From Anaerolineales bacterium (GTDB lineage: Bacteria > Chloroflexota > Anaerolineae > Anaerolineales > UBA6663): 41,882 bases of DNA. Each line of letters opens with the position of its first letter. The first letter of the stretch is position 1. A model generated the notes under the pieces. It was given only the letters and a program-made list of their open reading frames with translations. It searched no databases and was not told the DNA's origin. Below, one piece after another: positions 5,021 to 35,205 of the stretch. The DNA lies in the NCBI GenBank assembly GCA_020845955.1, contig JADLEU010000323.1:1-41882 (forward strand). Reading direction: 5' to 3'. A program made the position numbers and the translations under genes.

Positions 5021-5115
5021 CCCAACTGGCACATACTTGGGCGGCAGGTTCCGCTCGAGCCCCAGTCCAGCCAGCGTGCTGCTGTCCAGCGCGCTGACCC
5101 CCTGGCAATCGGACC

Positions 5116-5143
5116 TTGTTGCCAATCCCTTTCGGGGTAAAAT
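5116..5143 (+). promoter_or_regulatory. Candidate promoter of recG
   Basis: TTGTTG (5116-5121) and TAAAAT (5138-5143) are separated by 16 bases. The preferred recG ATG at 5151 follows the -10 hexamer after only 7 bases, predicting a transcript that begins at or beside the start codon. Confidence 0.45.
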
Positions 5144-5150
5144 CATCCTT

Positions 5151-8482: not shown

Positions 8483-8512
8483 ATTGCGTTCCGGCCGCAA
8501 TTCGTGTATCTT
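8481..8512 (+). promoter_or_regulatory. Inverted repeat overlapping a candidate promoter of the coiled-coil gene
   Basis: GAATTGCG (8481-8488) and CGCAATTC (8496-8503) form a perfect 8-base repeat with a 7-base loop, starting inside the coaD stop codon. TTGCGT (8484-8489) and TATCTT (8507-8512), 17 bases apart, make a candidate promoter whose -35 region lies in the repeat. The repeat may be an operator or a weak terminator of coaD; no T-tract follows directly. Confidence 0.4.
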
Positions 8513-8560
8513 ATGGCTTTAACGTGATCCGCTGCACGGTCCCCTTTGGGGGAGGGCAAT

Positions 8561-9028: not shown

Positions 9029-9056
9029 AGGCCCAAGCGCGAAGCGCGCTCTCGCC

Positions 9057-9085
9057 TTGACAGGTCTGTTCCCCGCCCTTATAAT
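9057..9085 (+). promoter_or_regulatory. Consensus promoter of rpmF
   Basis: TTGACA (9057-9062) and TATAAT (9080-9085) are separated by exactly 17 bases, a perfect sigma-70 consensus. Transcription should begin near 9092, giving a leader of about 79 bases before the rpmF ATG. Confidence 0.85.
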
Positions 9086-9094
9086 CGCCTTCGT

Positions 9095-9119
9095 TGCCTG
9101 CCGGCAGTCTCGGCAGGCA
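9095..9119 (+). promoter_or_regulatory. Hairpin at the 5' end of the rpmF leader
   Basis: TGCCTGCCG (9095-9103) and CGGCAGGCA (9111-9119) are a perfect 9-base inverted repeat with a 7-base loop. It would form right at the 5' end of the transcript from the consensus promoter. It may stabilise the messenger or act as a protein-binding site; no T-tract follows, so it is not a standard terminator. Confidence 0.5.
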
Positions 9120-9170
9120 TTACTGTGCGCCTTGCAGGGGACGTGCCTCAAAGAGGCAGAAGGAACGATC

Positions 9171-9365
9171 ATGCCGCCGCATCCGAAACGAAAACACTCG
9201 AAGGGGCGTCGCGATCGCCGGCGCGCTCACGATGCCCTGACCCCCATCGCTCTAGTCACCTGCCGCAACTGCGGCGAACTGCGCCCGCAGCACACCGTCT
9301 GCGCCAACTGCGGCCACTACGAGGGTAAGGAAGTCATCGCTGTCAAGAAGCCAGAAAAAGGCTAA
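9171..9365 (+). CDS. rpmF: 50S ribosomal protein L32
   Basis: This 64-residue product is ribosomal protein L32. It begins MPPHPKRKHSKGRRDRRRAHDAL, a normal basic tail, and carries the zinc ribbon cysteines in VTCRNCGELR and TVCANCGHYEGKEV, near residues 30-35 and 44-47. The ATG at 9171 follows AGAAGGA at a spacing of about seven bases. An in-frame upstream extension to 8982 overlaps the coiled-coil gene and is not needed. A perfect promoter and a leader hairpin precede it. fabD follows after a gap of about 150 bases, matching the common pairing of rpmF with fatty acid synthesis genes in bacteria. Secure. Confidence 0.95.
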   Translation: MPPHPKRKHSKGRRDRRRAHDALTPIALVTCRNCGELRPQHTVCANCGHYEGKEVIAVKKPEKG

Positions 9366-9378
9366 GACCAGCGGGAGC

Positions 9379-9420
9379 GCGCGGGATACGGAGCCTGAGC
9401 TCAGGCCAGCTTACCCGCGC
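9379..9420. repeat. Nested inverted repeats between rpmF and fabD
   Basis: An outer pair GCGCGGG (9379-9385) / CCCGCGC (9414-9420) encloses a perfect 14-base palindrome GCCTGAGCTCAGGC (9393-9406), with unpaired seven-base arms between. It may act as a T-less terminator of rpmF or as an operator for fabD. The inner palindrome is symmetric enough for a dimeric regulator. Confidence 0.4.
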
Positions 9421-9513
9421 CCGATGCACGCCGCTTGCCGAGCGTAAAGGCCGTTACCCGTGCCTTCTCATCGCCGGCAGATCACCTCGCGCAGCCCCAC
9501 ATACAAAACCGCC

Positions 9514-10467
9514 ATGTCCCTCACTGCCGCTGCTACCGCCTTCGTCTTTCCCGGCCAGGGTTCGCAGTTTGTGGGCATGGGCCGTGACCTGGTCCAGCAT
9601 TCGCCCGCCGCGCACGAGGTGTTTGCCGCGGCTGACGATGTGCTTGGGTTCGGCCTGACGCGCTTGTGCTGGGAAGGGCCGGAAGCGGAACTCAACGATA
9701 CTCTCAACGCCCAGCCTGCGCTGCTCACATGCTCGATCGCGGCGCTGAGGGCATTGCACGAGCGCCTGGGAGACTTCACGCCCAGGCTGCTAGCCGGCCA
9801 CTCGCTGGGTGAGATCACCGCCTTGGTAGCGGCCGGCGCCATGGAATTAGAGGATGGGCTGATGCTCGTGCGCAAGCGCGGCGAGCTCATGAAGGCGGCG
9901 GGTGAGCGCGCCCCGGGTGGGATGACGGCCATTCTTGGGCTGGATGCGGCGGCCCTGGTGGGCATCTGCGGCCAGGCGAGCGCACAGACTGGTGGCATTG
10001 TGCAAATAGCCAACGACAATTGCCCTGGCCAGGTGGTCCTATCGGGCGATTGCGCCGCACTCGACAAGGCCGCTGAGCTCGCCAAGGGTCGCGGCGCCAA
10101 GCGAACCCGGCGCCTACCGGTGTCCATCGCCGCCCACTCCCCGCTGATGCAGTCGATCGTGTCTGAGTTCACGCAGACGGTGGAAGCCGTGCCACTCATC
10201 GGCCCACTGCCCCCCATCGTCAGCAACATCACTGCCACGGCAGTGAGCGACCCCAATGAGCTACGCCGTGAGCTGCCCGCCCAATTGACGTCTCCGGTGC
10301 GCTGGACTGACTCAGTGCGCTACATGCTGGCCCAGGGCTTGACCAGCTTTGTCGAGCTAGGCCCAAAAGACGTGTTGACCAGTCTGCTCAAGCGTATCAA
10401 CGGGAGTGCTCGGGGCAAGGCTGTGGGCACGCCGGAGGAGTTGGAGGCGGTGCTCGGAGATTGGTAG
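9514..10467 (+). CDS. fabD: Malonyl-CoA:acyl carrier protein transacylase
   Basis: FabD loads malonyl groups from malonyl-CoA onto acyl carrier protein for fatty acid elongation. The 317-residue product has AFVFPGQGSQFVGMGRDL at the N terminus, the nucleophile elbow LAGHSLGEITALVA near residues 90-103 with its serine, the arginine region VRKRGELM near 119-126, and the catalytic histidine in SIAAHSPLM near 200-208. The ATG at 9514 gives a family-typical start; a GTG at 9460 would add 18 residues without conserved content. TACAAA at 9502-9507 lies 6 bases before the ATG and may be a -10 element. plsX, fabG and acpP, its frequent partners, are not next to it. Secure. Confidence 0.95.
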   Translation: MSLTAAATAFVFPGQGSQFVGMGRDLVQHSPAAHEVFAAADDVLGFGLTRLCWEGPEAELNDTLNAQPALLTCSIAALRALHERLGDFTPRLLAGHSLGEITALVAAGAMELEDGLMLVRKRGELMKAAGERAPGGMTAILGLDAAALVGICGQASAQTGGIVQIANDNCPGQVVLSGDCAALDKAAELAKGRGAKRTRRLPVSIAAHSPLMQSIVSEFTQTVEAVPLIGPLPPIVSNITATAVSDPNELRRELPAQLTSPVRWTDSVRYMLAQGLTSFVELGPKDVLTSLLKRINGSARGKAVGTPEELEAVLGDW

Positions 10468-19973: not shown

Positions 19974-20810
19974 ATGGCGCTCAAGGGCAATTTACGTGAT
20001 TTTTCCACCACCCAGCTGCTCAACCTGATCAACCTGGCTAAGAAGACCGGCACGTTGGTCGTTGAGGGGCCAAATCAGGCGGCGCAGCTGGCGTTTCGCA
20101 ACGGCAAGCTTATTTATGGGCAGCTGGCCCAGGAAGATGGAAACCTGACCAGCATCCTGCACAAGGCCGGCAAGCTCAACGACGAGCAGGCCCGAGTGTT
20201 GCGCGAGCGCGCCGCCAGGTCGACCGATAAAGAGCTTGGGTTGCTGCTGATCAATGCCGGCTATGTCAGCCAGACCGACATCTTGCTCAGCATCCGCGCG
20301 CATGTGCTCGACATCGTCTATCGCCTGATCACCTGGGTCGAGGGGCTCTTCCGTTTCGAACAGGGGGTCATGCCGAGCGAAGACCGCATCACCGTTCCAA
20401 TCGAGCTAGAAAATGTCATCATCGAGGGCGCGCGCCGTATGCGCGAGTGGGAGCGGTTGGTCGAGGAGTTGCCCAGCCTTGATATGGCGCTCAAGTTCAC
20501 CGAGCATCCCAACGTCAACATCCGCGACATGAAGCTGAGCGTGGAAGAGTGGCGGGTAGTTTCCTTTATCAACCCTAAGAACTCCATGAAGGCTATCGCC
20601 AAGCAGAATAACCTGACTGATTTGGAGATCCGGCGCATCGTCTACGGGCTGCTGCAGGCCGGCCTTGTAGAAGTGATTCGGCCCGAAGGCGCTCCGCGGC
20701 CCCTGCCCTTTGGCTTGTCGCCCCGCAAGCCCAGCCCGCCCACGCCAGCCGAGAAGACCGCCGCCCGCGGCCTCGTCAACCGGCTGATTGCGCGGATCCG
20801 GTCGCTGTAG
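19974..20810 (+). CDS. DUF4388 (PATAN-like) domain protein
   Basis: The 278-residue protein has a DUF4388 domain in residues 1-110: MALKGNLRDFSTTQLLNLIN, KKTGTLVVEG, LAFRNGKLIYGQL. A further helical region includes LLINAGYVSQTDILLSIRAHVLDIVYRL. Residues 178-240 (EEWRVVSFINPKNSMKAIAKQ and LEIRRIVYGLLQAGLVEVI) look like a winged-helix. The C-terminal 40 residues are Pro/Arg-rich. DUF4388 proteins often accompany response regulators and MglA-like GTPases and are thought to be protein-interaction modules. It is the first gene behind a strong promoter and lies 35 bases before the GTPase gene. AAGGA precedes the ATG. Confidence 0.85.
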   Translation: MALKGNLRDFSTTQLLNLINLAKKTGTLVVEGPNQAAQLAFRNGKLIYGQLAQEDGNLTSILHKAGKLNDEQARVLRERAARSTDKELGLLLINAGYVSQTDILLSIRAHVLDIVYRLITWVEGLFRFEQGVMPSEDRITVPIELENVIIEGARRMREWERLVEELPSLDMALKFTEHPNVNIRDMKLSVEEWRVVSFINPKNSMKAIAKQNNLTDLEIRRIVYGLLQAGLVEVIRPEGAPRPLPFGLSPRKPSPPTPAEKTAARGLVNRLIARIRSL

Positions 20811-21428: not shown

Positions 21429-22232
21429 ATGAGTTCCATCGTGACTGATCAAGGCAGCGTCCACTACGAGAGCTACGGCTCGGGAGCGCCTGTCATCCTG
21501 CTGCATGGCTGGATCGGTTCCTGGGGTCTCTGGCAGCCGACGATGGAAGCGCTGGGGCGCAGCTACCGCTGCTATGCGCTCGACTTCTGGGGGTTTGGCG
21601 AATCGGGCAAGAAACGCTCTTCTTACGCCGTGAGTGATTTCACCGAGCTGGTGCGCCAGTTCATGGACGCCCTTGGCATTGCCCAGGCGCCGCTCATCGG
21701 CCACTCGATGGGCGGCACCACCAGCCTGGGCACAACCGTCCGTTACCCCGACCGGGTCACCAAGGTCTGTGTCATCGGCTCGCCAATCGTGGGCACCTCG
21801 CTCTCGATCCTCTTGCAGATGGCTGGCGTGCCCTGGATCGGCTCGGTCGTCCGCAACATGCTGCCGCTGCTTAAATTTGGGATTCGCGCGGCCGCGCCCC
21901 TGATCACCCGAGACCCAAAGTGGTACGACATGGTTGCCCTCGACCTGTCACGCACGACGGTTGAGTCCTTTTTCAGCAGCATTGGCTCATTGCGCCGGAC
22001 TGACTTGCGGCCGCGGCTGCCGGAAATCAAGGTGCCCGTGCTGGGCATTTATGGCCAGCGCGACGTCATCGTCCACCCCAAGCAGTATCAGCCGCTGCTA
22101 GCGGGGGTCAAGCACGCTCGGGCCGAGTTGATGCCGAAATCGGGCCACTTTCCTATGCTGGATGAGCCCGACAAATACCTGGGCGTAATCCGCGGCTTTC
22201 TCGACACAGCGCCTCCCCGGGGGGACTTGTAG
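21429..22232 (+). CDS. Alpha/beta hydrolase (active serine kept)
   Basis: The 267-residue protein is an alpha/beta-fold hydrolase. The oxyanion-hole motif LLHGWIGSWGLW lies near residues 23-34, the nucleophile elbow IGHSMGG has Ser93, the acid is in YGQRDVIVHP and the histidine in SGHFPMLDEPD. A lid with hydrophobic helices (LSILLQMAGVPWIGSVVRNMLPLL) near 120-145 suggests a lipid-like substrate. The ATG at 21429 gives MSSIVTDQGSVHYE; upstream frame extension overlaps the GTPase gene and is shadow. A paralog at 34417 has Gly at the nucleophile position. The V4R-like gene starts eight bases after its stop. The substrate is not known; an ester, thioester or acyl substrate is inferred. Confidence 0.88.
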   Translation: MSSIVTDQGSVHYESYGSGAPVILLHGWIGSWGLWQPTMEALGRSYRCYALDFWGFGESGKKRSSYAVSDFTELVRQFMDALGIAQAPLIGHSMGGTTSLGTTVRYPDRVTKVCVIGSPIVGTSLSILLQMAGVPWIGSVVRNMLPLLKFGIRAAAPLITRDPKWYDMVALDLSRTTVESFFSSIGSLRRTDLRPRLPEIKVPVLGIYGQRDVIVHPKQYQPLLAGVKHARAELMPKSGHFPMLDEPDKYLGVIRGFLDTAPPRGDL

Positions 22233-22240: not shown

Positions 22241-22882
22241 ATGGAGCAACCCAGCGCGGCCCACAGCCCCGAATACTACTATCCGAACAAGATGGTGCGC
22301 ATTATCCTCCTGGCGATGGAGGAGGTCATGGGCCGCAACGGCGTCAACGCTGTCCTGAACCTGGCCCAGCTCAAGCACCTGGTCAACAATTTCCCGCCCA
22401 ACAACTTCGACCGGCAGGTGACCTTCTCGGACTTGGGCGCCCTGATGCGCTCGCTGGACGAAATGTACGGGCCGCGTGGTGGGCGAGGCTTGGCGCTGCG
22501 GGCCGGGCGGGCCTGCTTCAAGTACGGCCTCAAGGAGTTCGGGCCAGTGCTGGGGATTGCGGACCTGGCGTTTCGCCTACTGCCGCTGCACATGAAGCTC
22601 AAGGTTGGCGCCGGCGTCTTTGCCGAGACCTTCAACAAGTTCAGCGACCAGGTGGTGCACTTGGGCGAAACCGAGGAACAATTTCTGTGGGAGATCCAGC
22701 GCTGCCCGGTTTGTTGGGACCGCCACGCTGAAACGCCCTGCTGCTTCCTAGCGGTCGGCATCCTGCAGGAGGCCCTCTATTGGGTCAGTGGCGGCAAGAA
22801 TTTTGAGGTCTCTGAAACCGCCTGTGTCGCCTGCGGCGCGGGATCGTGCCTGATCGTGATCGAAAAGAACCCGCTGGACTAA
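22241..22882 (+). CDS. V4R-like cysteine-rich protein, signalling operon copy
   Basis: The 213-residue product is a paralog of the protein at 11709-12344. Shared segments are YYYPNKMVRIIL, YGPRGGRGL, LGIADLAFRLLPL-like, FNKFSDQ, QRCPVCWDRHAETPCC and the C-terminal SGGKNFEVSETACVACGAGSC. This copy has more cysteines at the C terminus (ACVACGAGSC) than the other. The layout resembles V4R-domain proteins, which bind small ligands such as porphyrin precursors or hydrocarbons. It begins eight bases after the hydrolase and its stop overlaps the next ATG (TAATG), so the three genes are tightly coupled. Function unknown; a metal-bound sensor or redox role is possible. Confidence 0.7.
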   Translation: MEQPSAAHSPEYYYPNKMVRIILLAMEEVMGRNGVNAVLNLAQLKHLVNNFPPNNFDRQVTFSDLGALMRSLDEMYGPRGGRGLALRAGRACFKYGLKEFGPVLGIADLAFRLLPLHMKLKVGAGVFAETFNKFSDQVVHLGETEEQFLWEIQRCPVCWDRHAETPCCFLAVGILQEALYWVSGGKNFEVSETACVACGAGSCLIVIEKNPLD

Positions 22883-24159
22883 TGCGCAAGTACGTCCTCC
22901 GCGACCACCGTCACGTGCACCCCTTCAATGAGGAGGCGCGTGATCTACGCATCCAGAATAAACCCCTCTGGCTCCACCAGCGCGACACGCTGGCGTCTTA
23001 TACAACTCAGGAGATCGTCGCCGACCGCTTCGATGCGCTGCCGCGCGATGGGGCCGAATGTCTGGTCCATGCCGATAACCTGTATTTCGACCAGGAATAC
23101 ATTGAAGCCTTTATGCGGGCGGCCCGCCAGCTCGGTGTCCCGGCCCGCGCGGCCTTTGCACCCGACAACAAGACCTTCCAGCAGCACTCTCTGCCCCTTT
23201 CGACCAGCTTCGAACGCGACGGCAACCTCTACCTGGCCAACCTGTGGTACTTCCCGGCGGGCATCACGAACGACCCGCAGCCGGTCGTTATCGACTTTCA
23301 GAGCCGCGAGATCGGCTACTACCATGTGCCGACCTACATGGCTGCTGATCAGGGCGATCTGGTTTACCAAGTGCCGCTGTTGGGCTTGATCGCCATCGAC
23401 GCTTGGGTCCACATCCTGATGGCCGACATGGTCTTCGGGCTCTTCAAGCGCGGCGCCCGCTTCGAAAAGCGCGCCCAGGAGAGGACGGCGTTCAAGCTGC
23501 GGGTGTTGTGGCGCGCACTGCTGGAGCAAAAACAGGTGCTGCGCTGTTCCGACGTGGTTCGGATCGGCCGCAACTGCACCATCGACCCCTCCGCCACCAT
23601 CACCGGCCCGTCGTCCATTGGAGACAACTGCACCATTGGAGCCGGGGTCGCCATCGACAATTGCACCATCGGTGACAATGTCAACATCTCTCAGGGCTGC
23701 CAGTTGCTGCTGTCGACCGTTGGCGACGGGGCGTTCCTGCCGTTCCGAGCCTCGCTGTTCATGACCACCCTGATGGAAAACGCCATGGTGGCCCAGAACA
23801 CCTGCCTGCAGCTGTGCGTCATCGGCCGCCGCACGTTTATTGGCGCTGGCAGCACCTTCACTGACTACAACCTGCTCCCCACCCCCATCCGCGCCATGAA
23901 CGCCAACCTGGAGTTGCGCGACAGCAGCGCACCGGTCCTGGGCGGCTGTGTCGGGCACAACTGCCGCATTGGCTCGGGCATGATCATCTATCCAGCCCGG
24001 ACGATCGAGTCCGACGTGGTGCTCTTCGCCTCGCCCGAGCGGCGCGTCGTCGACCGCAACATCGCTTTTGAGGACAGCGATCATCACAAGATCCGGCTGG
24101 CGCCTCTACACCGGCGGCTGTACCCCCGCAAGGGCGAGAAAGTGGCCGACACCTGGTAA
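22882..24159 (+). CDS. Left-handed beta-helix (hexapeptide repeat) protein with nucleotidyltransferase-like N-terminal region
   Basis: The product of about 425 residues starts MRKYVLRDHRHVHPFNEEARDL. The N-terminal half (residues 1-225) has ECLVHADNLYFDQEYIEAFM and NKTFQQHSLPL, vaguely like a sugar-nucleotidyltransferase or a unique domain, but lacks a clear GxGTRxxP signature. The C-terminal half from about residue 230 has hexapeptide repeats (IGRNCTIDPSATITGPSSIG, IGDNCTIGAGVAIDNCTIG, IGRRTFIGAGSTF, VGHNCRIGSG), forming a left-handed beta-helix as in GlmU and acyltransferases. The ATG at 22882 overlaps the preceding stop. The next gene is an acyl-ACP-reductase-like enzyme, which suggests acyl or sugar transfer linked to lipid. 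The precise reaction is unknown. Confidence 0.75.
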   Translation: MRKYVLRDHRHVHPFNEEARDLRIQNKPLWLHQRDTLASYTTQEIVADRFDALPRDGAECLVHADNLYFDQEYIEAFMRAARQLGVPARAAFAPDNKTFQQHSLPLSTSFERDGNLYLANLWYFPAGITNDPQPVVIDFQSREIGYYHVPTYMAADQGDLVYQVPLLGLIAIDAWVHILMADMVFGLFKRGARFEKRAQERTAFKLRVLWRALLEQKQVLRCSDVVRIGRNCTIDPSATITGPSSIGDNCTIGAGVAIDNCTIGDNVNISQGCQLLLSTVGDGAFLPFRASLFMTTLMENAMVAQNTCLQLCVIGRRTFIGAGSTFTDYNLLPTPIRAMNANLELRDSSAPVLGGCVGHNCRIGSGMIIYPARTIESDVVLFASPERRVVDRNIAFEDSDHHKIRLAPLHRRLYPRKGEKVADTW

Positions 24160-24179: not shown

Positions 24180-25271
24180 ATGGACACCTTCGCCTTCATC
24201 ATCCACCCGATCGACCCAAAGCGCGACGTAAGCCGCAAGTTCCCGCTGTTGGGCCGGCTGCTCACCCCTGCCCAGATCAACTTCCTCAGCACCTTCTTTC
24301 CACCCGTCTACATTTCTCAAATTGACGGGCTGCGCTCGCCGGCAACCGGCCGGGAAGTTAGGGGGTGGTTTGTGGCCTGTCCGCTGACCCCGGCGCGCAT
24401 GCTCGAATTGCCCGAAAGCACGGTGTACCGTAAAATAGTGGAGACTGGCCGGTTTGCAGAGCGTCTGGGGGCGCAAATCCTGGGCCTGGGAGCGTTTACG
24501 TCGGTCGTGGGAGATGCCGGCCTAACGATTTCCCAAAGGCTCTCCATCCCGGTGACTACGGGCGATTCCTATACCGTGGCGGTGGCCGTCGAGGCCGTGA
24601 TCGCCGCGGCGCGTCAGATGGAGGTTCCGCTGGCGAGCGCCTCGGCGGTGGTGCTAGGGACAACGGGCGCAGTTGGCGCCGCGGCGGCCGAGCTCTTGGC
24701 CGGCGACATCGGCAAGCTTTGGCTGATCGGGCGGCGTCCAGATGCTTTGCAGACGCTCTGCCGGCGGCTGCGCGAGCGCACGCCGGCCCGGGTGGCCGTG
24801 GCCACCGACCTGGCGCCGCTGGCCAAGGCTGACCTGGTGCTGACAGTGACAAGCGCGCTCGACAGCCTGATCGAACCGCGGCACTTACGCCCGGGCGCGG
24901 TAGTGTGCGATGTGGCTCGCCCGCGAGACGTGTCGGCGCGAGTCGCCGCCGAGCGTGATGATGTGCTCGTGATTGATGGCGGTATGGTGCAGATGCCCGG
25001 CACAGCCACTCGGCTAAATTTCGATTTTGGGTTTCCGCCTGGTATGGTGTACGCCTGCATGGCAGAAACCATGGCGCTGGCGTTAGAAGGCCGGAACGAA
25101 AGCTTTACCCTCGGCCGCGCGATTACGATCGAAAAGGTGCGCGAGATTGCCGCGATGGCGTCGAAACATGGGTTCCGATTGGGCGGGCTCCGGTCCTTCG
25201 AACGCGCCGTCACGCCCGAACAGATCGAGCGCGTTGCGGCGCGGGCCGCTCGGGCCAGGGGAGGCGTGTGA
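24180..25271 (+). CDS. Acyl-ACP reductase-like (AAR-like) enzyme
   Basis: I place this 363-residue protein near the long-chain acyl-ACP reductase family, best known from cyanobacteria, which makes fatty aldehydes from acyl-ACP with NADPH. It shares GLGAFTSVVGDAGL near residues 103-116, PVTTGDSYTVAVAVEAV near 125-141, the Rossmann motif VVLGTTGAVGAAAAELL near 157-173, the DVARPRDVS and VIDGGMVQMPG region, and MVYACMAETMALALEGRNES containing Cys293 - close to the catalytic Cys294 of the Synechococcus enzyme. The end RAITIEKVREIAAMASKHGF also fits. It would normally be auto-annotated as a shikimate-dehydrogenase-like protein. No aldehyde deformylating oxygenase is nearby. Activity is inferred; the active-site match makes it credible. 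Confidence 0.75.
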   Translation: MDTFAFIIHPIDPKRDVSRKFPLLGRLLTPAQINFLSTFFPPVYISQIDGLRSPATGREVRGWFVACPLTPARMLELPESTVYRKIVETGRFAERLGAQILGLGAFTSVVGDAGLTISQRLSIPVTTGDSYTVAVAVEAVIAAARQMEVPLASASAVVLGTTGAVGAAAAELLAGDIGKLWLIGRRPDALQTLCRRLRERTPARVAVATDLAPLAKADLVLTVTSALDSLIEPRHLRPGAVVCDVARPRDVSARVAAERDDVLVIDGGMVQMPGTATRLNFDFGFPPGMVYACMAETMALALEGRNESFTLGRAITIEKVREIAAMASKHGFRLGGLRSFERAVTPEQIERVAARAARARGGV

Positions 25272-26110
25272 TGACAGGCCGGTTGAGGCAGGGCAAGCGC
25301 ATCCTTCTCGTCGTAGAGGACGATCCCGACACCGCCAACTTGCTCTCGATGTTCTTCGGCGGCCACGAATTCATCGTCGACGTGGCTGGACGAGGCGAGG
25401 AGGCCGTGACGCTGGCGCGTCGGCGCCTGCCCGACGTGATCCTACTCGATATTGGCCTGCCCGACTTTGACGGTTACGCTGTCTGCGAAGAACTGCGCCA
25501 GTCGCCGCGCACCAGCCATATCCCCATCATCATGCTCAGCGAGAAGACCTCCCTGTCCGATCGGGTGACGGGGTTGGGCGCGGGCGCTCAAGACTACGTC
25601 ACCAAGCCTTTCGACCTCGAAGAACTGCGTCTGCGCGTCCAAAACCTTGTGGCCCGCTCGCTGCGCGAGAACTTGGTCGATCCGCGCACCAATCTGCCTA
25701 CCGGGCCGTGGATCGACGACCAACTCAAGCGCGTGCGTGAGCGGGCGGGTTGGCATGCGCTGCAGTGCCGGATCGAGGCCTACGAACCCTTCCTCGATCA
25801 GAATGGCTTTGTGGCCGGCGATGATGTGCTCAAGTTCGCAGCTCGCCTGCTACGCGAAGCGACCGACCAGTTGGGCACACCGGAAGACTTTATCGGCCAC
25901 CCCAGCACCGAGACGTTCTTGATTCTGACAGGCGCCGCCGAGCCCGACGCGCTGGCTGCCCGGCTGCGTAGCCGATTCAATACCGAAGTGGTCACCCATT
26001 ACAATTTCGTGGACCGCGAGCGCGGCTACATCCTGGCCAACGGCCCCGATGGCCAGGCGCTGCCGGTGCCCTTCATGACCCTGGAGGTCACCACTCGCGC
26101 GTCAAACTAG
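25271..26110 (+). CDS. Response regulator with degenerate GGDEF-like domain, first copy
   Basis: The 279-residue protein has a receiver domain (residues 11-130) with ILLVVEDDPD, the phospho-acceptor Asp60 in VILLDIGLPDFDGY and the lysine in DYVTKPFDLEEL. The C-terminal half, from DPRTNLPTGPWIDDQL, resembles a GGDEF domain, but its signature position reads HPSTETFLIL, so it cannot be an active diguanylate cyclase of known type. The ATG at 25271 overlaps the stop of the AAR-like gene. A paralogous regulator follows after 52 bases. It probably works with the giant kinase two genes downstream. The end RERGYILANGPDGQALPVPFMTLEV is shared with the paralog. Confidence 0.88.
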   Translation: MTGRLRQGKRILLVVEDDPDTANLLSMFFGGHEFIVDVAGRGEEAVTLARRRLPDVILLDIGLPDFDGYAVCEELRQSPRTSHIPIIMLSEKTSLSDRVTGLGAGAQDYVTKPFDLEELRLRVQNLVARSLRENLVDPRTNLPTGPWIDDQLKRVRERAGWHALQCRIEAYEPFLDQNGFVAGDDVLKFAARLLREATDQLGTPEDFIGHPSTETFLILTGAAEPDALAARLRSRFNTEVVTHYNFVDRERGYILANGPDGQALPVPFMTLEVTTRASN

Positions 26111-26162: not shown

Positions 26163-27059
26163 ATGAGCAAAGGCAGAATCCTCGTCGTCGAAGATGATTT
26201 CGACATTTCGAACATGCTGCGGATCTATTTCACGGGCCAGGGCTTCGAGGTCAGCGTCGCCCCGCGCGGCGGCGAGGCGTTGGCTATGACGCGTCAGAGC
26301 CTGCCGCACCTGATTGTGCTCGACATTATGTTGCCCGATATGGACGGCTACACGGTCTGCAAGCAGCTGCGGACGACAACCCGCACCAGCCACATCCCCA
26401 TCATCTTTCTCACCCAGAAAGATGAGCGCAGCGACAAGATCGCCGGCCTGGAACTCGGCGCCGACGATTACATTACGAAGCCCTTCGACATTGAGGAGCT
26501 CAAGCTGCGGGTGACGAACGCCATTGTGCGGCAGGAGCGCGAGAGCCAGACCGATCCACGCACTGGCCTGCCTTCCGGCCGGCTGATCGAGGACCACTTG
26601 CGCCGCATCATCCGCACACAGGGCTGGGCCTTGCTTGACTGTCGTCTGAACCACTTCGAGCGCTTCAAAGACGTCTATGGGTTCATTGCCGGCGACGAGG
26701 TGCTGCGGTTCACGTCCATTCTGTTGGGCGAAGTGGTCGATGAGGTCGGCACAGCCAATGACTTCATTGGCCATCCTGGCGGCGACAACTTTGTGGTCGT
26801 CACAACCACCGCGGCTGGTCCGCGCGTCCGCGATCGGTTGAAGGCCCGCTTCAACGACGAAATACTGACTCATTACAGCTTTGTCGATCGCGAACGCGGC
26901 TTTAGCCTCGCCAAGAACCACGACGGCCAGGAGGTCCAGGTGCCACTGATGACCATGGCGATTGGCCTAGTCACTTCTGAGACGCGCAGCTTCGCCGACA
27001 TCCGCGAGATCACCGAGCTCGCGGCCGAGGCCCGCCGGCAGGACGCGGTGGCCGTCTAG
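26163..27059 (+). CDS. Response regulator with GGDEF-like domain (GGDNF), second copy
   Basis: The 298-residue protein is a paralog of the previous one. The receiver has ILVVEDDFDISNML, Asp54 in IVLDIMLPDMDGY and DYITKPFDIEEL. The second half begins DPRTGLPSGRLIEDHL and holds HPGGDNFVVV, a near-GGDEF with Asn in place of Glu. In active cyclases the fourth position is Glu or Asp, so activity is doubtful but substrate binding may remain. AGGAGAGGGAGG lies just before the ATG at 26163. The C-terminal tail is about 20 residues longer than the paralog's. It lies 41 bases before the preferred start of the kinase gene and may be its output. Confidence 0.88.
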   Translation: MSKGRILVVEDDFDISNMLRIYFTGQGFEVSVAPRGGEALAMTRQSLPHLIVLDIMLPDMDGYTVCKQLRTTTRTSHIPIIFLTQKDERSDKIAGLELGADDYITKPFDIEELKLRVTNAIVRQERESQTDPRTGLPSGRLIEDHLRRIIRTQGWALLDCRLNHFERFKDVYGFIAGDEVLRFTSILLGEVVDEVGTANDFIGHPGGDNFVVVTTTAAGPRVRDRLKARFNDEILTHYSFVDRERGFSLAKNHDGQEVQVPLMTMAIGLVTSETRSFADIREITELAAEARRQDAVAV

Positions 27060-27100
27060 CACGCCGCTGGTTGACCGGCGGCCGGGATACACGACGAGGC

Positions 27101-30100
27101 ATGGGCTTTGGAGCCGCACTTCCGCTGGCACTGGCCGTCCTGGCGGTCGGCGCAGCGCTGCTGGGACTGACGGCCGTCAGCCTGCGCTGGCTTCGCCGGC
27201 GCAGGCTGACGGCCCTTGCCTATCGGCTGCCCGCCCTAGCGGCCGTGCCGGCCGCCGCCCAAGGGGCTGGGGTCGTGGTGGCTGCGCTGGGCGGCCGGGT
27301 AGAGTATGCCAACGAGCGTGCCCGCCAGCTCTTTGGCCTGAATGGCGAGGCGCCGCGACTGCGCCAGTTGCTGCACGCTGCCCAACCGCCGGACCGCCTG
27401 CTCGAACTGTTCGCCGCCGAGGGCCAGGCCGAAGTGAGCCTGGCCGACCGGCCGGTACAAGTCACTTCGCTGCGCGTGGCGCTGCCCGGCGAGCCGGAGC
27501 GCTTTGTGATCGTGTTGCGCGACACCACCGGCGAAGCGCTAGCCCGAGCCAACCAAGACAGTGTGCAAGCGCTGTGTGTCGTGGCCGATATCAATCGGTC
27601 CATCACGAGCAGCCTGGATCCTGCCGAGACCTATGACGCGGTCGTGGCGAGCTTGCCCCGTGCCTTCCGCTTCAGCTTAGCCGAGTTGAACCTGTGGGAC
27701 CCGGCTGCCGCCCTGCTGCGGCCGGTGCGCCATTCTGGCGATCAGGATTATCCGCGCCAGCTCGAACTGGTGGGTGCTCACTATGCGCCCGACGAGGGGT
27801 ATTCGGGCTGGATCACCACGCGCCGCGAGCCGCTGCTGGTGGCAAACATCAACGCCTATGAGGCTGTGCGGCCAAAGCTCTTTGGCGTTGACTTCCCGTT
27901 CGAGGCGTACCTTGGTGTGCCGTTGCTGATCGGAGATGACTTTGTAGGCACGCTGGAGTTGGCCAGCTATCACCCAGATGCCTTCCAGGTCAACGATCTG
28001 GCGGTGCTCAGCCTGATTGGCGCCCAGGCTGCTCAGGCCATTCGCAATGCGCAGCGCTTTGCCGAGCAACAGCGGCACGCGGCCGAACTTTCAGGCCTAG
28101 CGGAGATCACGCGCGCGCTGGAGGCCAGTTCCGACCCGCGCGAGCTCTATGGCCGCCTGGCTGCCGAGGTCGCCCGATTCCTGGCTGTTGAGCAGGTGGC
28201 CTTCATGGACTTTCAGCCCGAGGCCAGCCTCCTGATCGGACAGCCCCCGTTCCACGGGATGCCTGACATTGTGGCTGAGGTCTACCGTCTGGCGCTTGAG
28301 CCTGACAGCCTGGCCTTGCGGCTGTGGGAACTGGCCGAGCCCTGGCTGTCGAACGATGTGCCCAACGACCCCGATGTCGACGCGCTGGGCCTACGCGAGT
28401 TTGCCGTTGCCACTGGCGCGCGTACCACGCTGCTGGCGCCAATCGGCACGCCAGGCCGGCGCATGGGCCTGGTGCAAATCTCGAACAAGCTCGACGGTAG
28501 CCCTTTTCTGACCGATGACGTGCGCCTGCTGCAGGCCTTTGCCGCGCAAGTCGCCGCCATTCTCGACAACGCCCGGCTGGTGCGCGAGGCGCAGGTGCGT
28601 GCCGAGGAGGCCGACATTCTGCGCGGCATTGCCGCGGCGACGGCCGCCACGCCCGATCTGGACACCGCGCTGCGCCTGGCAATGCGCCAGGCAGCCAGCC
28701 TGCTGCGCTTCGACTACGGCATGATCGCGCTACTGGACGAGGCCCGTGGCGAGCTGGTGCCGCACCCCGCCTCGGTCTATGGCGGCCAGCCGGACGAGGC
28801 TCTGGCCGTCCGGCTGCGCAATGACGACCCGCTCTTTGCGGCCTCCATCACCCGCACGCGGCGGCCATTTCTCTCGGGCCGCGCCCTGCGCGACCGCCGC
28901 ATTGCCGGTTTCTATCGGCAGCTCGTGGAGCACTTCCAGGTCAACAGCGCCATGGACGTGCCCCTCGTCGTCAGCGACCGCTGCATTGGCGAGATGATTG
29001 TTGTGGCGCGCCGCGAGCACGCCTTCACCCGCAGCGACCTACGGCTGCTCTCTACCATCGCGTCACAGTTGGCCTCGGCCATCGAGCGGGCCCGGCTGTC
29101 TGCCGCCACCGACCAGAACCTGCAGCGCCGCGTCGATCAACTGACTGCGCTGACCCGTGTGAGCCGCGAGCTCAACCAGACGCTGGAGTTGGAGCGCATT
29201 CTGCGGCTCGTGCACGACGAAGTCGTGCATGCCACCCGGGCCGACTGCGGCACGCTGGTGTTGCTGGACCAGGAGGCCGCGCCCGGCAGTGTAGCCATGC
29301 GCCTGGGAGAAGAGACGCTGGGCAACATGCTGACGACGTTGGAAGCCGAGTTCGTGCGTGGTGAGGCCCCGCGCCGGCATGTGATCAGCTTGCCGCCGGA
29401 CTCGGAGCTTGCCGCCCATGCTGGTGTGCAATCTGTTCTGATAGTACCCATCCTTGTGCAGGGTCAGGTAGTCGGGTTGGTGCACCTGCATAGCCGCCGG
29501 GCGGTGGGCTTTGACGAATCGGCCCAAGAGGCCGCGCAGGCTTTGGCCGCGCAAACCGCCATCGCCGTTGAAAACACGCGTCGCTACGCCGAACAAATCC
29601 GACGGGCCGACTTGCTGCGCCGCCGGGCCGACCAGCTAGGCCAATTGTTCGAGGTCTCGCAAAGTGTGCGTTCTGACCGGCCGCTCGGCGACAACCTCGA
29701 GGCCATTGCCTTCGGCCTGCAGGAGGCCGTCGGCTTCAATGTCGTACTCATCAGCGTCCTCGACCCCAAATCTCGGCGTCTATTGGCCGCGGCGGCCAGT
29801 GGATTGCCGCTGGCTGCTTTTGAAGCCCTGACCCGGGTGCAGGTGTTGTGGGACGAGGTTGCTCGCGTTCTGCGCGATGAGTTTCGACTGAGCCAATCCT
29901 TCTTCCTCCCAGGCGAGCGCGCTGCCTCGCTCGTCCGTGGCCTGGAAAACCTGCTGGCCCACCAGTCCGTCACCGAGCCGGAAGTTCTGGCCGATTGGCA
30001 GCCCCAAGACGCGCTGCTGGTTCCCTTGCGCGGGTCGCACGACGAGCCGGTTGGCCTGCTCACAGTCGGCGGTCCCCGCGATGGCCGCCGGCCCGACCGG

Positions 30101-33100
30101 AACACAGTCGAGATCATCGAGATTTTCGCCAACCAGGCCGCGCAGGCGATTGAAAACGCGCGCCTGTATGCCGCAGCCGAGCGCCGCGCCGGACAACTAC
30201 TCGCGCTGCACCGCGTGGTCGAGGCCGCCAGCGCCCCGGCCAACCGCGGCCGCCTGGCCCAAATCGTCGTTACTACCCTGCTGGCCGAGATGCGCGGACC
30301 CGACGTCGCTGTTCTGGCGTTGCGAGCGGCCAGTAACGCCGCTCCCGGGGCGCCGCCGCGACTGGAAATTGCTGGCGCGGCCGGCACGATCCGGCCGCAC
30401 ATCGCGCTGGATCCACTGCTCGCCGGCACCACGCCCTTAGGCGACGCCGTAACCGGGGGTGGCCCGATGCTGCTGCTCCAGGCTGCCGAGACCGATTGGG
30501 GTCTCAACCCCTTCGTTGTCGCGTTAGAGGCCGCTTCCTTCGTCAGCGTCCCCATCGTCAGCCAGGGGGCAGCGGTGGGTGCCCTGTTTGTCGGCGCGCA
30601 TCACGCCGCCAATCAACCCAGCCCGTTCGAACCTGAAGACCTGGATGTCTACACGATCCTGGCCAACCAGTTGGGGGCACGTCTCGAAAGCGCCCGACTG
30701 GAGGCCGACATTGAACAGCGCGCCGCCCAGTTGGCGGCGCTGGCCGAGGTGTCGCAGACCATCACTGCCACCCTGCGCACGGTTGATGTGCTCCAGGCCG
30801 TGCTTGGTCCCCACGCTCTGCGCCGCGTTCTTGATTACGATAGCGTAACGCTCTGGCTGCGCGACGGCGAGCGGCTGCGCATCGCCGCTGCCCACGGATT
30901 CGAAGACGATGCTGAACGGCTTGGCCTGCAGGTCGACATCGCCGACAGTGTGCTCTTTGCCGAGATGGCCCGCACCCAGGCCCCCATCGTCGTGCCTGAT
31001 GTCTGGGCCGACCCGCGCTTCGCGGCCGGCCAGCTGCAGCCAACCCGATCTTGGCTGGCCGCACCGCTAGCCAGCAAAGGCCGCATCTTGGGCGTGCTGG
31101 CCCTCGACAAGGCGGAGGCGCACTACTACTCGCAGCAGGCTGCCTCCATCCTTCTGGCCTTTGCCAGCCAGGCTGCCGTGGCGCTCGACAATGCTCATCT
31201 GTTTGAGGAGAGCGAGCAGCGCACGCAGCTGCTCGACGAGCGCTCGCAGCGCCTGGCGCGGCTAAACCGCGTGTCCGCCCAGTTGAGCGGCACCCTCTAT
31301 GCGGATCAGATCTACGCCATTACCCTGACAGAGATGGTAGGCGCGCTAGATGTCGCCCGGGCGCTGGCGCTCACCCTGGATCCCGGCGGCCAGGCGCAGC
31401 TGACGGCCTACCACCCCGCCTTGCCGGGCGAGCCCGCGCCGGCCGGCTGGGTCCTGGGTCACGTGGCCGAAACGCTTACCGCCGTGGCAATGGAAGACGT
31501 TGTGCACGACGCCTTGCTGGCGACCGAACCCGGCGCGGCGGCCGCACTGCAGGCCCGCGGCGTCTGGTCCTTGCTGGTCGTGCCGCTGGTCATAGCCGGC
31601 CAGATGGCAGCGGCCATCCAGCTCGAGGAGACGCGCGCCGCGCGCCGCTTCACGCCGGGCGAGATCGAGTTGGCGCAGACCTTGGCCAACCAGGCGGCGG
31701 TCGCCGTGCAGAACGCCCGTCTGTACGCCGAGACTAAGGCGCGCAACGAAGAGCTGGTGGTGCTCAACCGCGTCACCTCCACCGTCAACTCGCTGCTGGA
31801 CCTCGAAGCCATGCTGCGCGCCACGGCGCGCGAAATGGTACCGATCTTCGCAGCCCGGCATTGCGGCATCGCCCTGCTCAACGCCGCGGGCACCCACCTA
31901 ACCGTAATCGCCGATGCCTCAGCTCGCCCGGATGACCCAAGCTCTGCCGGCCTTGCCATCGCTCTGGCTGGCGACCCTTCATCGGTGCAAGTCATCGAAA
32001 CCGGCCAGTCGCTGATAGTGCCACGCGCTTTTGAGAACCCACTGACTGAACCAATTCACGACCTGCTGCGCGAGCGCGCCACGCACTGCCTGATGATCGT
32101 GCCTCTCCGCACGCGCGGTGAGGTCATTGGCACCATTGGCCTCGACACCGACCAGTCCGACCGCGTCTTCACGGCGCCCGAGGTGTCGCTGGCCGAGACG
32201 CTCGCCGGCCAGATCGCTGGCGCGGTAGAGAATGCCCGCTTTGCCCAGGAATTGGAGGCGCGCGTCACCGCCCGTACGGCCGAGGTCCAACGCGAGCGCG
32301 AGCGCGTCGAGATCCTGCTGCAAGTCACAACCGAGCTGTCGTCAAGCCTGGACCTCGATCGAGTGCTGACCCGCGCTCTGCAGCTCGTGACCGAATCGAT
32401 CCATGCCGACCGCGGCGCGATCTACCTGATCGACATGGAGTCCGACCAGTTGACCTACCGCGCCGCCCTGGGCCGCCCGCAGCCATTACCGCCGGGCGGC
32501 CAGCCAGCCTCCTTCCGCCGCAGCGAGGGTCTGGTCGGCTGGGCTATCCAGACCCGGCAGGGCGCGGTCATCGCGGATCTGGCCGCCGACCGGCGCTCGG
32601 AACCACTGCCCGATCTGGGACACGAGCAGCGCAGCGCCCTGGTCGTGCCGCTGTTGGCTAACGAAGATTCGCTTGGCGCGATGATTCTGTTCAGCCCGCA
32701 GCCCAACACCTTTGACGAGGATCAGCTTCGACTGGTCTCCGCTGCCGCCAACCAGGTCGCCGCCGCCATCAACAACGCCGAGCTCTACCGCTTGATCCGC
32801 GACCAGGCCGAGCGCCTAGGAGCCATGCTGCGTGGGCAGCAGGTGGAAGCCACCAAGAGCCGCGCGATCCTGGAAGGCATTGCCGACGGCGTCCTGGTGG
32901 CTGGCGCCGATGGGGCCGTGATCCTGATCAATGTGGCTTGCGAGCGCATCCTGGGACTGGACCGGCAGCGCGTGGTGGGCCATCCGATCACCGAACTCGT
33001 TGGCATCTATGGCGCGGGCAGTCAGGCGTGGACCGAGGCGATTCGCCGCTGGGGGCGAAACCCCAACAGTTATCAACCGGGCGATTTCGTCGATCAGCGC

Positions 33101-33925
33101 CTGACGCTCGACAATCAGCGCGTCGTCTCCGTCCATCTGGCACCGGTGATCGCGGCTGACGAGTACCTGGGCGCGGTGTCGGTTATCCGCGATATTTCCC
33201 GAGAAGTGGAGGTCGACCGGCTCAAGAGCGAATTCGTGACCAATGTCAGCCACGAACTGCGCACGCCCATGACCTCCATCAAGGGGTATGCTGACCTGCT
33301 GCTGCTCGGCACGGCGGGCGCGCTCCAGCCCGATCAGGCCCGCTTCTTGGAGGTCATCAAGAGCAACGCCGACCGCTTGAGCCTGCTGGTCAACGACCTG
33401 CTCGACATCTCGCGTATCGAGGCGGGTCGAGTCCAGCTGGCGCTGCGTCCTATCCCGATCGCCGACGTTATCGATGACGTTTTGATTACGCTGCGTGGCC
33501 GGATTGAGGACGATCAGAAGCCCATGACGCTTACGGCGCGAGCCGGCCCTGGGCTGCCGCCGGTGTGGGCCGATCGCGCCCGTATCACGCAGATCATCAT
33601 GAACTTGGGCGATAACGCCTTCAACTACAGCCACCCCGGCGGCGAAATCGTGCTCTGCGCTCGGCACGACCCGGAGGCGCGCGAAGTAATCGTAGAGGTG
33701 ACCGACAGCGGCATCGGCGTTGCGCCCGAAGATCAGCCCCGCCTGTTCGGCCGCTTCTATCGCGGCGAAGATGCGCTCGTGCTGGCCAACCCGGGCACTG
33801 GCCTGGGCTTGGCAATCGCGCGCCAGTTGGCCGAGATGCACGGCGGGCGGCTGTGGTTGGCGCGGTCTGAAGTCGGGCAGGGCAGCACCTTTGCCCTGGC
33901 GCTGCCAATGGCAGAGACAGCCTAA
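27101..33925 (+). CDS. Giant sensor histidine kinase with about ten GAF domains
   Basis: The product of about 2274 residues starts with one membrane segment (residues 4-28) and a basic stretch, then a PAS-like piece (VVVAALGGRVEYANERARQL, about 62-81). By repeated ends of the type A.Q.A.A..NA.L I count ten GAF-like units starting near residues 153, 330, 507, 682, 846, 1033, 1212, 1386, 1553 and 1739. A PAS domain follows near 1920 (ILEGIADGVLVAGADGAVIL), then HisKA with His2051 in VSHELRTPMTSI and an HATPase domain with NLGDNAFNYS, DSGIGVAPED and GTGLGLAIARQL. Start is uncertain: TTG at 27071 or ATG at 27101. It is flanked by three response regulators. The ligands of the GAF units are unknown. 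Confidence 0.93.
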   Translation: MGFGAALPLALAVLAVGAALLGLTAVSLRWLRRRRLTALAYRLPALAAVPAAAQGAGVVVAALGGRVEYANERARQLFGLNGEAPRLRQLLHAAQPPDRLLELFAAEGQAEVSLADRPVQVTSLRVALPGEPERFVIVLRDTTGEALARANQDSVQALCVVADINRSITSSLDPAETYDAVVASLPRAFRFSLAELNLWDPAAALLRPVRHSGDQDYPRQLELVGAHYAPDEGYSGWITTRREPLLVANINAYEAVRPKLFGVDFPFEAYLGVPLLIGDDFVGTLELASYHPDAFQVNDLAVLSLIGAQAAQAIRNAQRFAEQQRHAAELSGLAEITRALEASSDPRELYGRLAAEVARFLAVEQVAFMDFQPEASLLIGQPPFHGMPDIVAEVYRLALEPDSLALRLWELAEPWLSNDVPNDPDVDALGLREFAVATGARTTLLAPIGTPGRRMGLVQISNKLDGSPFLTDDVRLLQAFAAQVAAILDNARLVREAQVRAEEADILRGIAAATAATPDLDTALRLAMRQAASLLRFDYGMIALLDEARGELVPHPASVYGGQPDEALAVRLRNDDPLFAASITRTRRPFLSGRALRDRRIAGFYRQLVEHFQVNSAMDVPLVVSDRCIGEMIVVARREHAFTRSDLRLLSTIASQLASAIERARLSAATDQNLQRRVDQLTALTRVSRELNQTLELERILRLVHDEVVHATRADCGTLVLLDQEAAPGSVAMRLGEETLGNMLTTLEAEFVRGEAPRRHVISLPPDSELAAHAGVQSVLIVPILVQGQVVGLVHLHSRRAVGFDESAQEAAQALAAQTAIAVENTRRYAEQIRRADLLRRRADQLGQLFEVSQSVRSDRPLGDNLEAIAFGLQEAVGFNVVLISVLDPKSRRLLAAAASGLPLAAFEALTRVQVLWDEVARVLRDEFRLSQSFFLPGERAASLVRGLENLLAHQSVTEPEVLADWQPQDALLVPLRGSHDEPVGLLTVGGPRDGRRPDRNTVEIIEIFANQAAQAIENARLYAAAERRAGQLLALHRVVEAASAPANRGRLAQIVVTTLLAEMRGPDVAVLALRAASNAAPGAPPRLEIAGAAGTIRPHIALDPLLAGTTPLGDAVTGGGPMLLLQAAETDWGLNPFVVALEAASFVSVPIVSQGAAVGALFVGAHHAANQPSPFEPEDLDVYTILANQLGARLESARLEADIEQRAAQLAALAEVSQTITATLRTVDVLQAVLGPHALRRVLDYDSVTLWLRDGERLRIAAAHGFEDDAERLGLQVDIADSVLFAEMARTQAPIVVPDVWADPRFAAGQLQPTRSWLAAPLASKGRILGVLALDKAEAHYYSQQAASILLAFASQAAVALDNAHLFEESEQRTQLLDERSQRLARLNRVSAQLSGTLYADQIYAITLTEMVGALDVARALALTLDPGGQAQLTAYHPALPGEPAPAGWVLGHVAETLTAVAMEDVVHDALLATEPGAAAALQARGVWSLLVVPLVIAGQMAAAIQLEETRAARRFTPGEIELAQTLANQAAVAVQNARLYAETKARNEELVVLNRVTSTVNSLLDLEAMLRATAREMVPIFAARHCGIALLNAAGTHLTVIADASARPDDPSSAGLAIALAGDPSSVQVIETGQSLIVPRAFENPLTEPIHDLLRERATHCLMIVPLRTRGEVIGTIGLDTDQSDRVFTAPEVSLAETLAGQIAGAVENARFAQELEARVTARTAEVQRERERVEILLQVTTELSSSLDLDRVLTRALQLVTESIHADRGAIYLIDMESDQLTYRAALGRPQPLPPGGQPASFRRSEGLVGWAIQTRQGAVIADLAADRRSEPLPDLGHEQRSALVVPLLANEDSLGAMILFSPQPNTFDEDQLRLVSAAANQVAAAINNAELYRLIRDQAERLGAMLRGQQVEATKSRAILEGIADGVLVAGADGAVILINVACERILGLDRQRVVGHPITELVGIYGAGSQAWTEAIRRWGRNPNSYQPGDFVDQRLTLDNQRVVSVHLAPVIAADEYLGAVSVIRDISREVEVDRLKSEFVTNVSHELRTPMTSIKGYADLLLLGTAGALQPDQARFLEVIKSNADRLSLLVNDLLDISRIEAGRVQLALRPIPIADVIDDVLITLRGRIEDDQKPMTLTARAGPGLPPVWADRARITQIIMNLGDNAFNYSHPGGEIVLCARHDPEAREVIVEVTDSGIGVAPEDQPRLFGRFYRGEDALVLANPGTGLGLAIARQLAEMHGGRLWLARSEVGQGSTFALALPMAETA

Positions 33926-33983: not shown

Positions 33984-34370
33984 ATGGCGAAGATCTTGGT
34001 TGCTGAAGACGAACGGGATATCCGCGATTTGATTGCTTTCACTCTGCGCTTTGCGGGCTACGAGGTGTTGACGGCCAATAATGGCGAAGAGGCGGTCCAG
34101 CTCACCCAGCAGACCCTGCCCGATCTGGTACTGACCGATGTCCGGATGCCGAAGATGACGGGCTACGAAGCCTGCCGCATGATCAAAACCGACCCCGCTA
34201 CCCAGCACATTCCTGTGGTCTTCCTCTCCGCCAAAGGCCAGGAGGCCGAAGTCCAATCCGGCCTGGCCGCCGGCGGCGATGAGTATCTGCTCAAGCCCTT
34301 CGCCCCCGATCAGCTCACCCGCAAAGTAGCCGAGATCCTGAGCAAGCCGCGGCCCGAGACGGCCGCGTGA
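33984..34370 (+). CDS. Single-domain response regulator (CheY-like)
   Basis: This 128-residue protein is a lone receiver domain. It starts MAKILVAEDERDIRDLI, has the acidic pair, the phospho-acceptor Asp52 in LVLTDVRMPKMTGYE, the Ser in VVFLSAKGQE and the lysine in LLKPFAPDQL. AGAGGATAGAGG precedes the ATG at 33984. It lies 58 bases after the kinase gene and very likely receives phosphate from it or shuttles it to the other regulators. It has no output domain, so it must act through protein contact, for example with the DUF4388 protein or GTPase of the same cluster (a guess). Confidence 0.93.
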   Translation: MAKILVAEDERDIRDLIAFTLRFAGYEVLTANNGEEAVQLTQQTLPDLVLTDVRMPKMTGYEACRMIKTDPATQHIPVVFLSAKGQEAEVQSGLAAGGDEYLLKPFAPDQLTRKVAEILSKPRPETAA

Positions 34371-34416: not shown

Positions 34417-35205
34417 GTGAGCGCGCTGATCGTCGACGACGAGCTGATCCACTACGAGGTGCTGGGCCGCGGCCGGCCGCTGATCTTTCTGCATGGCTGG
34501 TTGGGGTCCTGGCGGTATTGGATTCCGACCATGCAGACGCTCAGCGCCGACTACCGGACCTATGCGCTAGACCTGTGGGGCTTCGGCGATTCCGCCAAGG
34601 TCAGCCAGCGTTACCATCTCGATGCCCAGGCCGAGATGTTGGCGCATTTCATGGAACAGCTGGGCATCCTGAAGGCGGCCTTTGTTGGCCATGGCCTCGG
34701 CGGCGCGGTGGTGCTGCGCCTCGCGCGCCGCTACCCCGATCTGGCTGACCGCGCGATGGCCGTGGGCCTGCCGCTGCGCGGCAGCGCGATTAGCCCGCGC
34801 TTGCTGACCGGCTCAGCCGTGGCCCTGGTCGAGGCGTTGCTGGGCAAAGGCCCGGCTGTCGATCCGATCAGCCGCGAAGCCGCCAAGGCCGACCCGCACG
34901 CGATTGACAGCACCGTTCGAGCCGCGATGGACACTGAGTTGCGCGCCGAGCTCGTCGAGCTTCGTCCCCCTTGCCTGCTCGTCTACGGCGACAAAGATCC
35001 CGTCATCGGGACGCCAGACGAGGCCGCCCTCGCCGAGCTGAACGGCAACGTCCACACTATCGGGCTGGAAGACTCGCGCCATTTCCCAATGCTGGACGAG
35101 GCGGCCAAGTTCAACCGCTTGCTGGCCGATTTCCTGGCTCTGCCCGCCGGTGAGAGTCTGAGCAATCTGAGCCTGAAAGACGAGTGGCACCGCCGGGTGC
35201 GCTGA
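34417..35205 (+). CDS. Alpha/beta hydrolase-fold protein lacking the nucleophile serine
   Basis: This 262-residue protein is a paralog of the hydrolase at 21429 (compare FLHGWLGSWRYWIPTMQTL with the equivalent segment there). The nucleophile elbow reads VGHGLGGAVVL: position 93 is Gly (GGC) where the paralog has Ser93. The acid Asp194 in YGDKDPVIG and His222 in DSRHFPMLDEAA remain. It is therefore probably not a normal serine hydrolase; it could be a binding protein, pseudo-enzyme or use different chemistry. The start is GTG at 34417 after AAGGGAG. It is the last gene of the plus-strand cluster. A single base change could explain the loss, so a sequencing error should be excluded. Confidence 0.88.
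   Translation: MSALIVDDELIHYEVLGRGRPLIFLHGWLGSWRYWIPTMQTLSADYRTYALDLWGFGDSAKVSQRYHLDAQAEMLAHFMEQLGILKAAFVGHGLGGAVVLRLARRYPDLADRAMAVGLPLRGSAISPRLLTGSAVALVEALLGKGPAVDPISREAAKADPHAIDSTVRAAMDTELRAELVELRPPCLLVYGDKDPVIGTPDEAALAELNGNVHTIGLEDSRHFPMLDEAAKFNRLLADFLALPAGESLSNLSLKDEWHRRVR

Follow-up and report, generated by a model that had tools for sequence, protein, structure and literature searches.

The window (the whole analysed stretch of 41,882 nucleotides from an Anaerolineales bacterium) was found to encode a predicted thioester reductase of the superfamily that includes PigE and the cyanobacterial acyl-ACP reductase (AAR), which opens alkane synthesis in cyanobacteria, a placement given by its fold and its residues. 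The gene forms part of a signal-processing locus whose order is conserved across the Anaerolineae, well beyond the window genome, and it is an accessory part of that locus. Taken together, the protein is probably a thioester reductase accessory to the locus, with a product or acylation state that would serve its neighbours.

The open reading frame at positions 24180-25271 of the forward strand opens with ATG, and its extent is exactly that given in a previous sequence-only reading of this DNA. That reading had expected automatic annotation to hide the enzyme under a shikimate dehydrogenase-like name, and the sole Pfam match above cut-off was indeed Shikimate_DH (PF01488), covering residues 147-258. 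In the NCBIfam search, the PigE model NF053554 matched residues 4-354 (E 7e-61) with 206.5 bits against a cut-off of 850, and the cyanobacterial AAR model TIGR04058 (EC 1.2.1.80; E 7e-29) reached 101.2 bits against a curated cut-off of 449.7. Since both scores were far under their cut-offs, automatic naming of the protein would fail or mislead. The TIGR04058 cut-off was passed by none of 400 Chloroflexota genomes, while one control passed it. When solved structures were searched with a profile built from 45 relatives, PigE (E 7e-52) and AAR 6JZU (E 6e-40) were retrieved, followed by a big gap; the profile check proposed earlier thus excluded a chance match. Additionally, a purifying signal was obtained for the gene, with a dN/dS of about 0.15-0.16 against orthologues, taken only from pairs with unsaturated synonymous sites (for instance, dN 0.186 and dS 1.166 against L048).

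The predicted model of the protein (pLDDT 89.9, pTM 0.89) had AAR as its top fold match, with a Z of 34.7 and 3.0 Å rmsd over 328 residues, nearly the whole chain. The TAD of the carmabin pathway followed with Z 32.3, and the next unrelated fold family reached only Z 13.8 in the same comparison. The overlay therefore upheld the proposed AAR-type fold, and no better full-length match to another dehydrogenase family was found. A shikimate dehydrogenase-like enzyme, as the above-cut-off Pfam match would have it, is very improbable; this identity was rejected since the match was limited to the Rossmann domain and the quinate/shikimate dehydrogenase YdiB fitted the model poorly (Z 13.1, rmsd 6.9 Å). 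Glutamyl-tRNA reductase, which uses a cysteine thioester mechanism, resembled the protein in its Rossmann part, with a weak sequence match (E 6.7e-5) and a partial fold match (Z about 13).

The motif YACMAET occupies residues 291-297, and phmmer, profile and MAFFT alignments agreed in placing its Cys293 opposite Cys294 of the Synechococcus elongatus AAR, as had been claimed, and opposite Cys296 of PigE. Cys293 was invariant in 45 relatives, and the cysteine of the C-x-A/S-E motif was found in every group member whose sequence extends that far. Judging from the whole-length fold match and the alignment, this putative catalytic residue would lie beside the cofactor pocket. The dinucleotide loop was kept as G160-x-x-G163-x-x-G166, with GATGDIG of AAR reading GTTGAVG, and the NADPH-phosphate triad R189/R193/R314 of AAR corresponded to R185, A189 and R313, two of the three positions being kept as R/K. 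In the alignment, Tyr247 of the AAR acyl tunnel was replaced by R247 (Q/R family-wide) and the tunnel-end tyrosines Y23 and Y26 by L23 and L28. Regarding the residues that dock the aldehyde deformylating oxygenase (ADO), R73 was aligned with P78, and R79 and K80 with R84 (variable in the family) and K85 (K/Q/R in the family). In the cyanobacterial enzyme, the acyl group is moved from ACP or CoA to a cysteine, Cys294, before hydride transfer from NADPH, and the mutation Y247A abolished stearoyl-CoA binding (PMC7089970). Given the changes of R193 to A189 and of Y247 to R247, the substrate handling of the window protein may differ.

Members of the AAR type beyond the cyanobacteria, namely PigE and PtTamH, were already known (PMC8341465, PMC9594044), so that point alone is not new. 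These relatives convert thioesters to aldehydes (PMC8341465, PMC9594044), and PtTamH is NADH-specific and active only on ACP-bound substrate (PMC9594044). The best profile match of the window protein was to the thioester reductase domain that occurs in PigE, of prodigiosin synthesis, and in PtTamH, of tambjamine synthesis; this domain shares its cysteine and the CMAET motif. In contrast, the PLP-dependent class III aminotransferase fused to it in both enzymes is absent from the window protein, which ends at residue 363, and the window gene has neither a pigment gene cluster around it nor an adjoining aminotransferase. A PtTamH-like fusion, in which the AAR-type domain comes after a class III aminotransferase, was observed in another Chloroflexota genome (L101, 5018-7567). 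The carmabin TAD (9E4S), known here from structure titles, one of which gives a Cys2238-dephosphocoenzyme A disulfide, shares the whole-length fold, but shows 16-17% identity and belongs to an assembly-line protein.

The kinship to the cyanobacterial enzyme that had been put forward stood in part. The protein shares with S. elongatus AAR (6JZQ/6JZU/6JZY) the whole-length fold, the position of the cysteine, the dinucleotide loop and two of the three phosphate-binding arginine positions. On the other hand, identity was 26-29%, Tyr247 and Arg73 were lost, the PigE profile matched better and the gene surroundings were different. The ADO family PF11266 was absent from the window genome (6.06 Mb, estimated 100% complete), as had been supposed, and matched in the S. 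elongatus control. In the maximum-likelihood tree, the AARs of the Anaerolineae locus formed their own clade (support 95/96), and a fused type with about 310 additional N-terminal residues formed a separate one (100/100). The Bacillota proteins, PigE and the TamH-like Chloroflexota protein were weakly joined, and the cyanobacterial AAR, represented by a single long branch, was grouped with a divergent Anaerolineae set (86/71, long branches). Because of this grouping, the window protein is not demonstrably a member of the cyanobacterial AAR family and is instead a member of the superfamily.

Table 1. Coordinates of the reductase gene, of the surrounding locus and of the fused relatives with their wax synthase genes (the latter in their own loci).
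Feature	Position	Strand	Basis or remark
DUF4388 protein, 278 aa, opens the conserved locus	19974..20810	+	domain search, locus comparison
Ras/Arf-like small GTPase, 177 aa	20846..21379	+	domain search, genome survey
alpha/beta hydrolase 1, GHSMGG nucleophile, conserved Asp and His	21429..22232	+	domain search, alignment; start picked by homology, ORF open from 21387
V4R-domain protein, 213 aa	22241..22882	+	domain search, locus comparison
nucleotidyltransferase-like (no GGxGTR) and left-handed beta-helix protein, adjoins AAR upstream	22882..24159	+	domain search, model
AAR/PigE-type thioester reductase, 363 aa	24180..25271	+	ORF call, profile matches, predicted model, alignments
putative catalytic Cys293 codon	25056..25058	+	ORF position, alignments, invariance in 45 sequences
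response regulator, degenerate GGDEF-like domain, 4-base overlap with AAR stop	25268..26110	+	
response regulator, GGDNF-type GGDEF-like domain	26163..27059	+	
histidine kinase, 2284 aa: PAS, ten GAF, PAS, HisKA, HATPase_c	27071..33925	+	
single-domain response regulator	33984..34370	+	domain search
alpha/beta hydrolase 2, nucleophile Ser replaced (GHGLGG)	34417..35205	+	
fused X-AAR and WS/DGAT, L121	5735-7954 with 4368-5738		4-base overlap, HHxxxDG in wax synthase
fused X-AAR and WS/DGAT, L122	6213-8435 with 8432-9802		4-base overlap, HHxxxDG
fused X-AAR and WS/DGAT, L124	87-2306 with 2303-3688		4-base overlap, HHxxxDG
fused X-AAR and WS/DGAT, L123	5961-8255 with 8228-9544		28-base overlap as called
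fused X-AAR beside WS/DGAT, G277:C9	25377-27460		

The signalling operon that had been described around the gene is real, and its class-wide extent lay beyond the reach of the previous reading. The conserved order runs from the DUF4388 protein through the small GTPase, an alpha/beta hydrolase, the V4R protein and the beta-helix protein to AAR, and continues with one or two response regulators, the giant GAF kinase, a further response regulator and a second alpha/beta hydrolase. The beta-helix protein combines an N-terminal nucleotidyltransferase-like domain devoid of the glycine-rich motif, which appears inactive from its sequence, with a left-handed helix, and it resembles ST0452, GMPPA/B and GlmU (moderate model, pLDDT 76). 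The catalytic triad was kept in the first hydrolase. In the second hydrolase of the window, Gly replaces the nucleophile Ser, as it does in seven out of ten orthologues, and the protein is possibly a receptor-like or structural pseudo-hydrolase. The GGDEF-like domains of two response regulators carry the altered signatures STETF and GGDNF and are probably not cyclases. No obvious aldehyde-consuming enzyme was found among the locus genes, and neither a report on an Anaerolineae AAR signalling locus nor a named system was found in the literature. In one relative (L116, 410-2298), genes for a roadblock/LC7 protein, a second V4R protein and a response regulator were observed directly upstream of the DUF4388 and GTPase genes, a neighbourhood that hints at an MglA/MglB-like GTPase switch.

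A protein of the window type was found in 47 genome loci, 44 of them from Chloroflexota (Anaerolineae); in these 44, the beta-helix gene lies upstream of AAR in 41 and a response regulator downstream in 42. Across 61 genomes, the GTPase was the most widely kept part (48), followed by the beta-helix gene (32) and the locus-type AAR (22, of which 21 also had the beta-helix gene), and the occurrence of these three genes was nested, with the exception of one fragmented genome. The P values for co-occurrence, calculated with shared ancestry ignored, were between 1e-4 and 2e-7, and 1.3e-4 among GTPase-bearing genomes. The locus AAR was missing in 11 of the 32 genomes having the beta-helix gene. In such loci AAR alone is missing and the beta-helix gene directly joins the response regulator: the neighbours close up, and no substitute enzyme was found at that position. 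No pattern linking V4R divergence to the absence of AAR was seen across the compared loci. Conversely, an Anaerolineae genome with a 60% identical AAR (L068, 7953-9101) had no signalling locus around it. Hence, neither AAR nor the beta-helix gene strictly requires the other. The nested occurrence and the closing up of the AAR-less loci describe a signalling core plus added layers, and AAR is an accessory part among those most easily lost from that core.

From its homologues, we infer that Cys293 of the window enzyme would accept the acyl group of an ACP or CoA thioester, and that reduction of the acyl-enzyme by NAD(P)H would then release a free aldehyde. As an accessory enzyme of the order-conserved locus, the reductase is most likely feeding or reporting to it: the aldehyde or the acylation state would most likely be used by the adjoining beta-helix/nucleotidyltransferase-like protein and the alpha/beta hydrolase, and the GTPase, kinase and response regulators would control that use. 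The beta-helix protein may be taken as the first candidate partner, because it adjoins AAR and co-occurs with it. The overlap of AAR with a response regulator gene, its position among signalling parts and the occurrence of the locus without it, as expected for an input module, would also fit a protein that senses acyl groups and NADPH instead of producing an aldehyde. Such a sensor would inform the GTPase and response regulators about the lipid or redox state through acylation of Cys293 and NADPH binding, with aldehyde release slow or absent. The loss of the nucleophile of hydrolase 2 in most orthologues points to non-catalytic enzyme folds in the locus; however, the catalytic features of the reductase are all kept in very distant members, and a sensor function is considered unlikely. 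That the lipid-derived aldehyde, or the acyl-enzyme, is itself the signal sensed by the locus, passing from a metabolite to a Ras-like GTPase/kinase circuit with V4R, the nucleophile-less hydrolase or GAF as receptors, is a speculative and rather unlikely extension.

The favoured reading, a thioester reductase serving the locus, leaves room for different substrates, and the "fatty" nature of the putative aldehyde is an assumption. PigE acts on a 3-acetyloctanoyl thioester. A similar non-fatty thioester (short-chain, hydroxylated or polyketide-like) is a tentative possibility for the window enzyme, one that would refine the favoured reading and is compatible with it. The far better match to the PigE than to the AAR profile and the changed tunnel residues argue for such a substrate, but neither a biosynthetic gene cluster nor a dedicated carrier protein was identified around the window gene.

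Wax had been among the fates offered for the aldehyde. The window genome encodes a fused paralogue (X-AAR, about 730 aa; G000:C67, L002), others of which are found in Chloroflexales, with 42-46% identity over the AAR part and the same cysteine; its N-terminal domain of 310 aa is absent from the window protein, and its clade stands apart from that of the window with full support. In five genomes, judged by their coordinates, the gene for the fused protein directly adjoins one for a WS/DGAT wax synthase (Table 1), and the L122 synthase passes both WS/DGAT Pfam models. Among 400 Chloroflexota genomes, WS/DGAT was present in 16 out of 19 that carry the fused protein of type 2, versus 32 of the 381 others; the type was assigned from copy number and, for retrieved sequences, also from the tree. 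A pathway from aldehyde to alcohol and on to wax or ether lipid, as with fatty acyl reductases and with the signalling genes only regulating, could draw on this adjacency in Chloroflexales-type genomes and on the window genome having both the fused paralogue and one partial WS/DGAT match. Nevertheless, WS/DGAT was found in none of the 28 other genomes with an operon-type AAR, and the window gene is devoid of the partner domain of the wax-linked paralogue. Consequently, this fate is quite improbable, and wax was discarded as the product of the window enzyme. The only WS/DGAT match of the window genome (G000:C369; L126, 6146-7060) is a partial catalytic domain (profile 33-182) with no HHxxxDG motif in its ORF, and may be divergent or broken.

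WS/DGAT-bearing bacteria are often devoid of known fatty acyl reductases (FarA in 1%, AcrB in 31%, FcrA in 26%), and the pathway drawn in the same study shows no AAR-type enzyme (PMC11948995). From its gene neighbourhood, the fused X-AAR is a candidate for acyl reduction in the wax ester synthesis of Chloroflexales; FcrA-type relatives of HMG-CoA reductase (HMGR) are a possible alternative. A search with PF07993 and PF00368 was uninformative, since PF07993 matched in nearly every genome and an HMG-CoA-reductase-family gene (PF00368) occurred in 16 of 16, making FcrA inseparable from ordinary HMGR. Furthermore, two genomes from a single Anaerolineae family (L100, 4580-7404, and L025) carry an AAR of the divergent clade preceded by a gene for an AMP-binding enzyme of the acyl-activating type, and the signalling locus of these genomes has no AAR. 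As the WS/DGAT and AMP-binding neighbours handle acyl chains, they support acyl reduction as the probable work of the family in Chloroflexota.

The domain of about 310 aa, which has no Pfam or NCBIfam match, forms the N-termini of the Chloroflexota fusions (L002, L090-L096). In Heliobacterium mobile and a Bacillota MAG (L073, 7085-8056, and L071, 7067-7972), it is instead encoded by a gene of its own directly upstream of AAR, and greA-like and lysS-like genes were located downstream of AAR in L071-L073.

Aldehyde-forming thioester reductases of the AAR fold have so far been associated with alkane synthesis and natural-product pathways. Here, a predicted reductase of this kind belongs, as an accessory component, to a signalling locus conserved across a major, mostly uncultured bacterial class, which suggests that acyl chemistry is used in signalling or envelope control. 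In addition, the survey singles out the fused relative, whose gene directly adjoins that of the wax synthase, as a candidate enzyme for acyl reduction in the wax ester synthesis of Chloroflexota.
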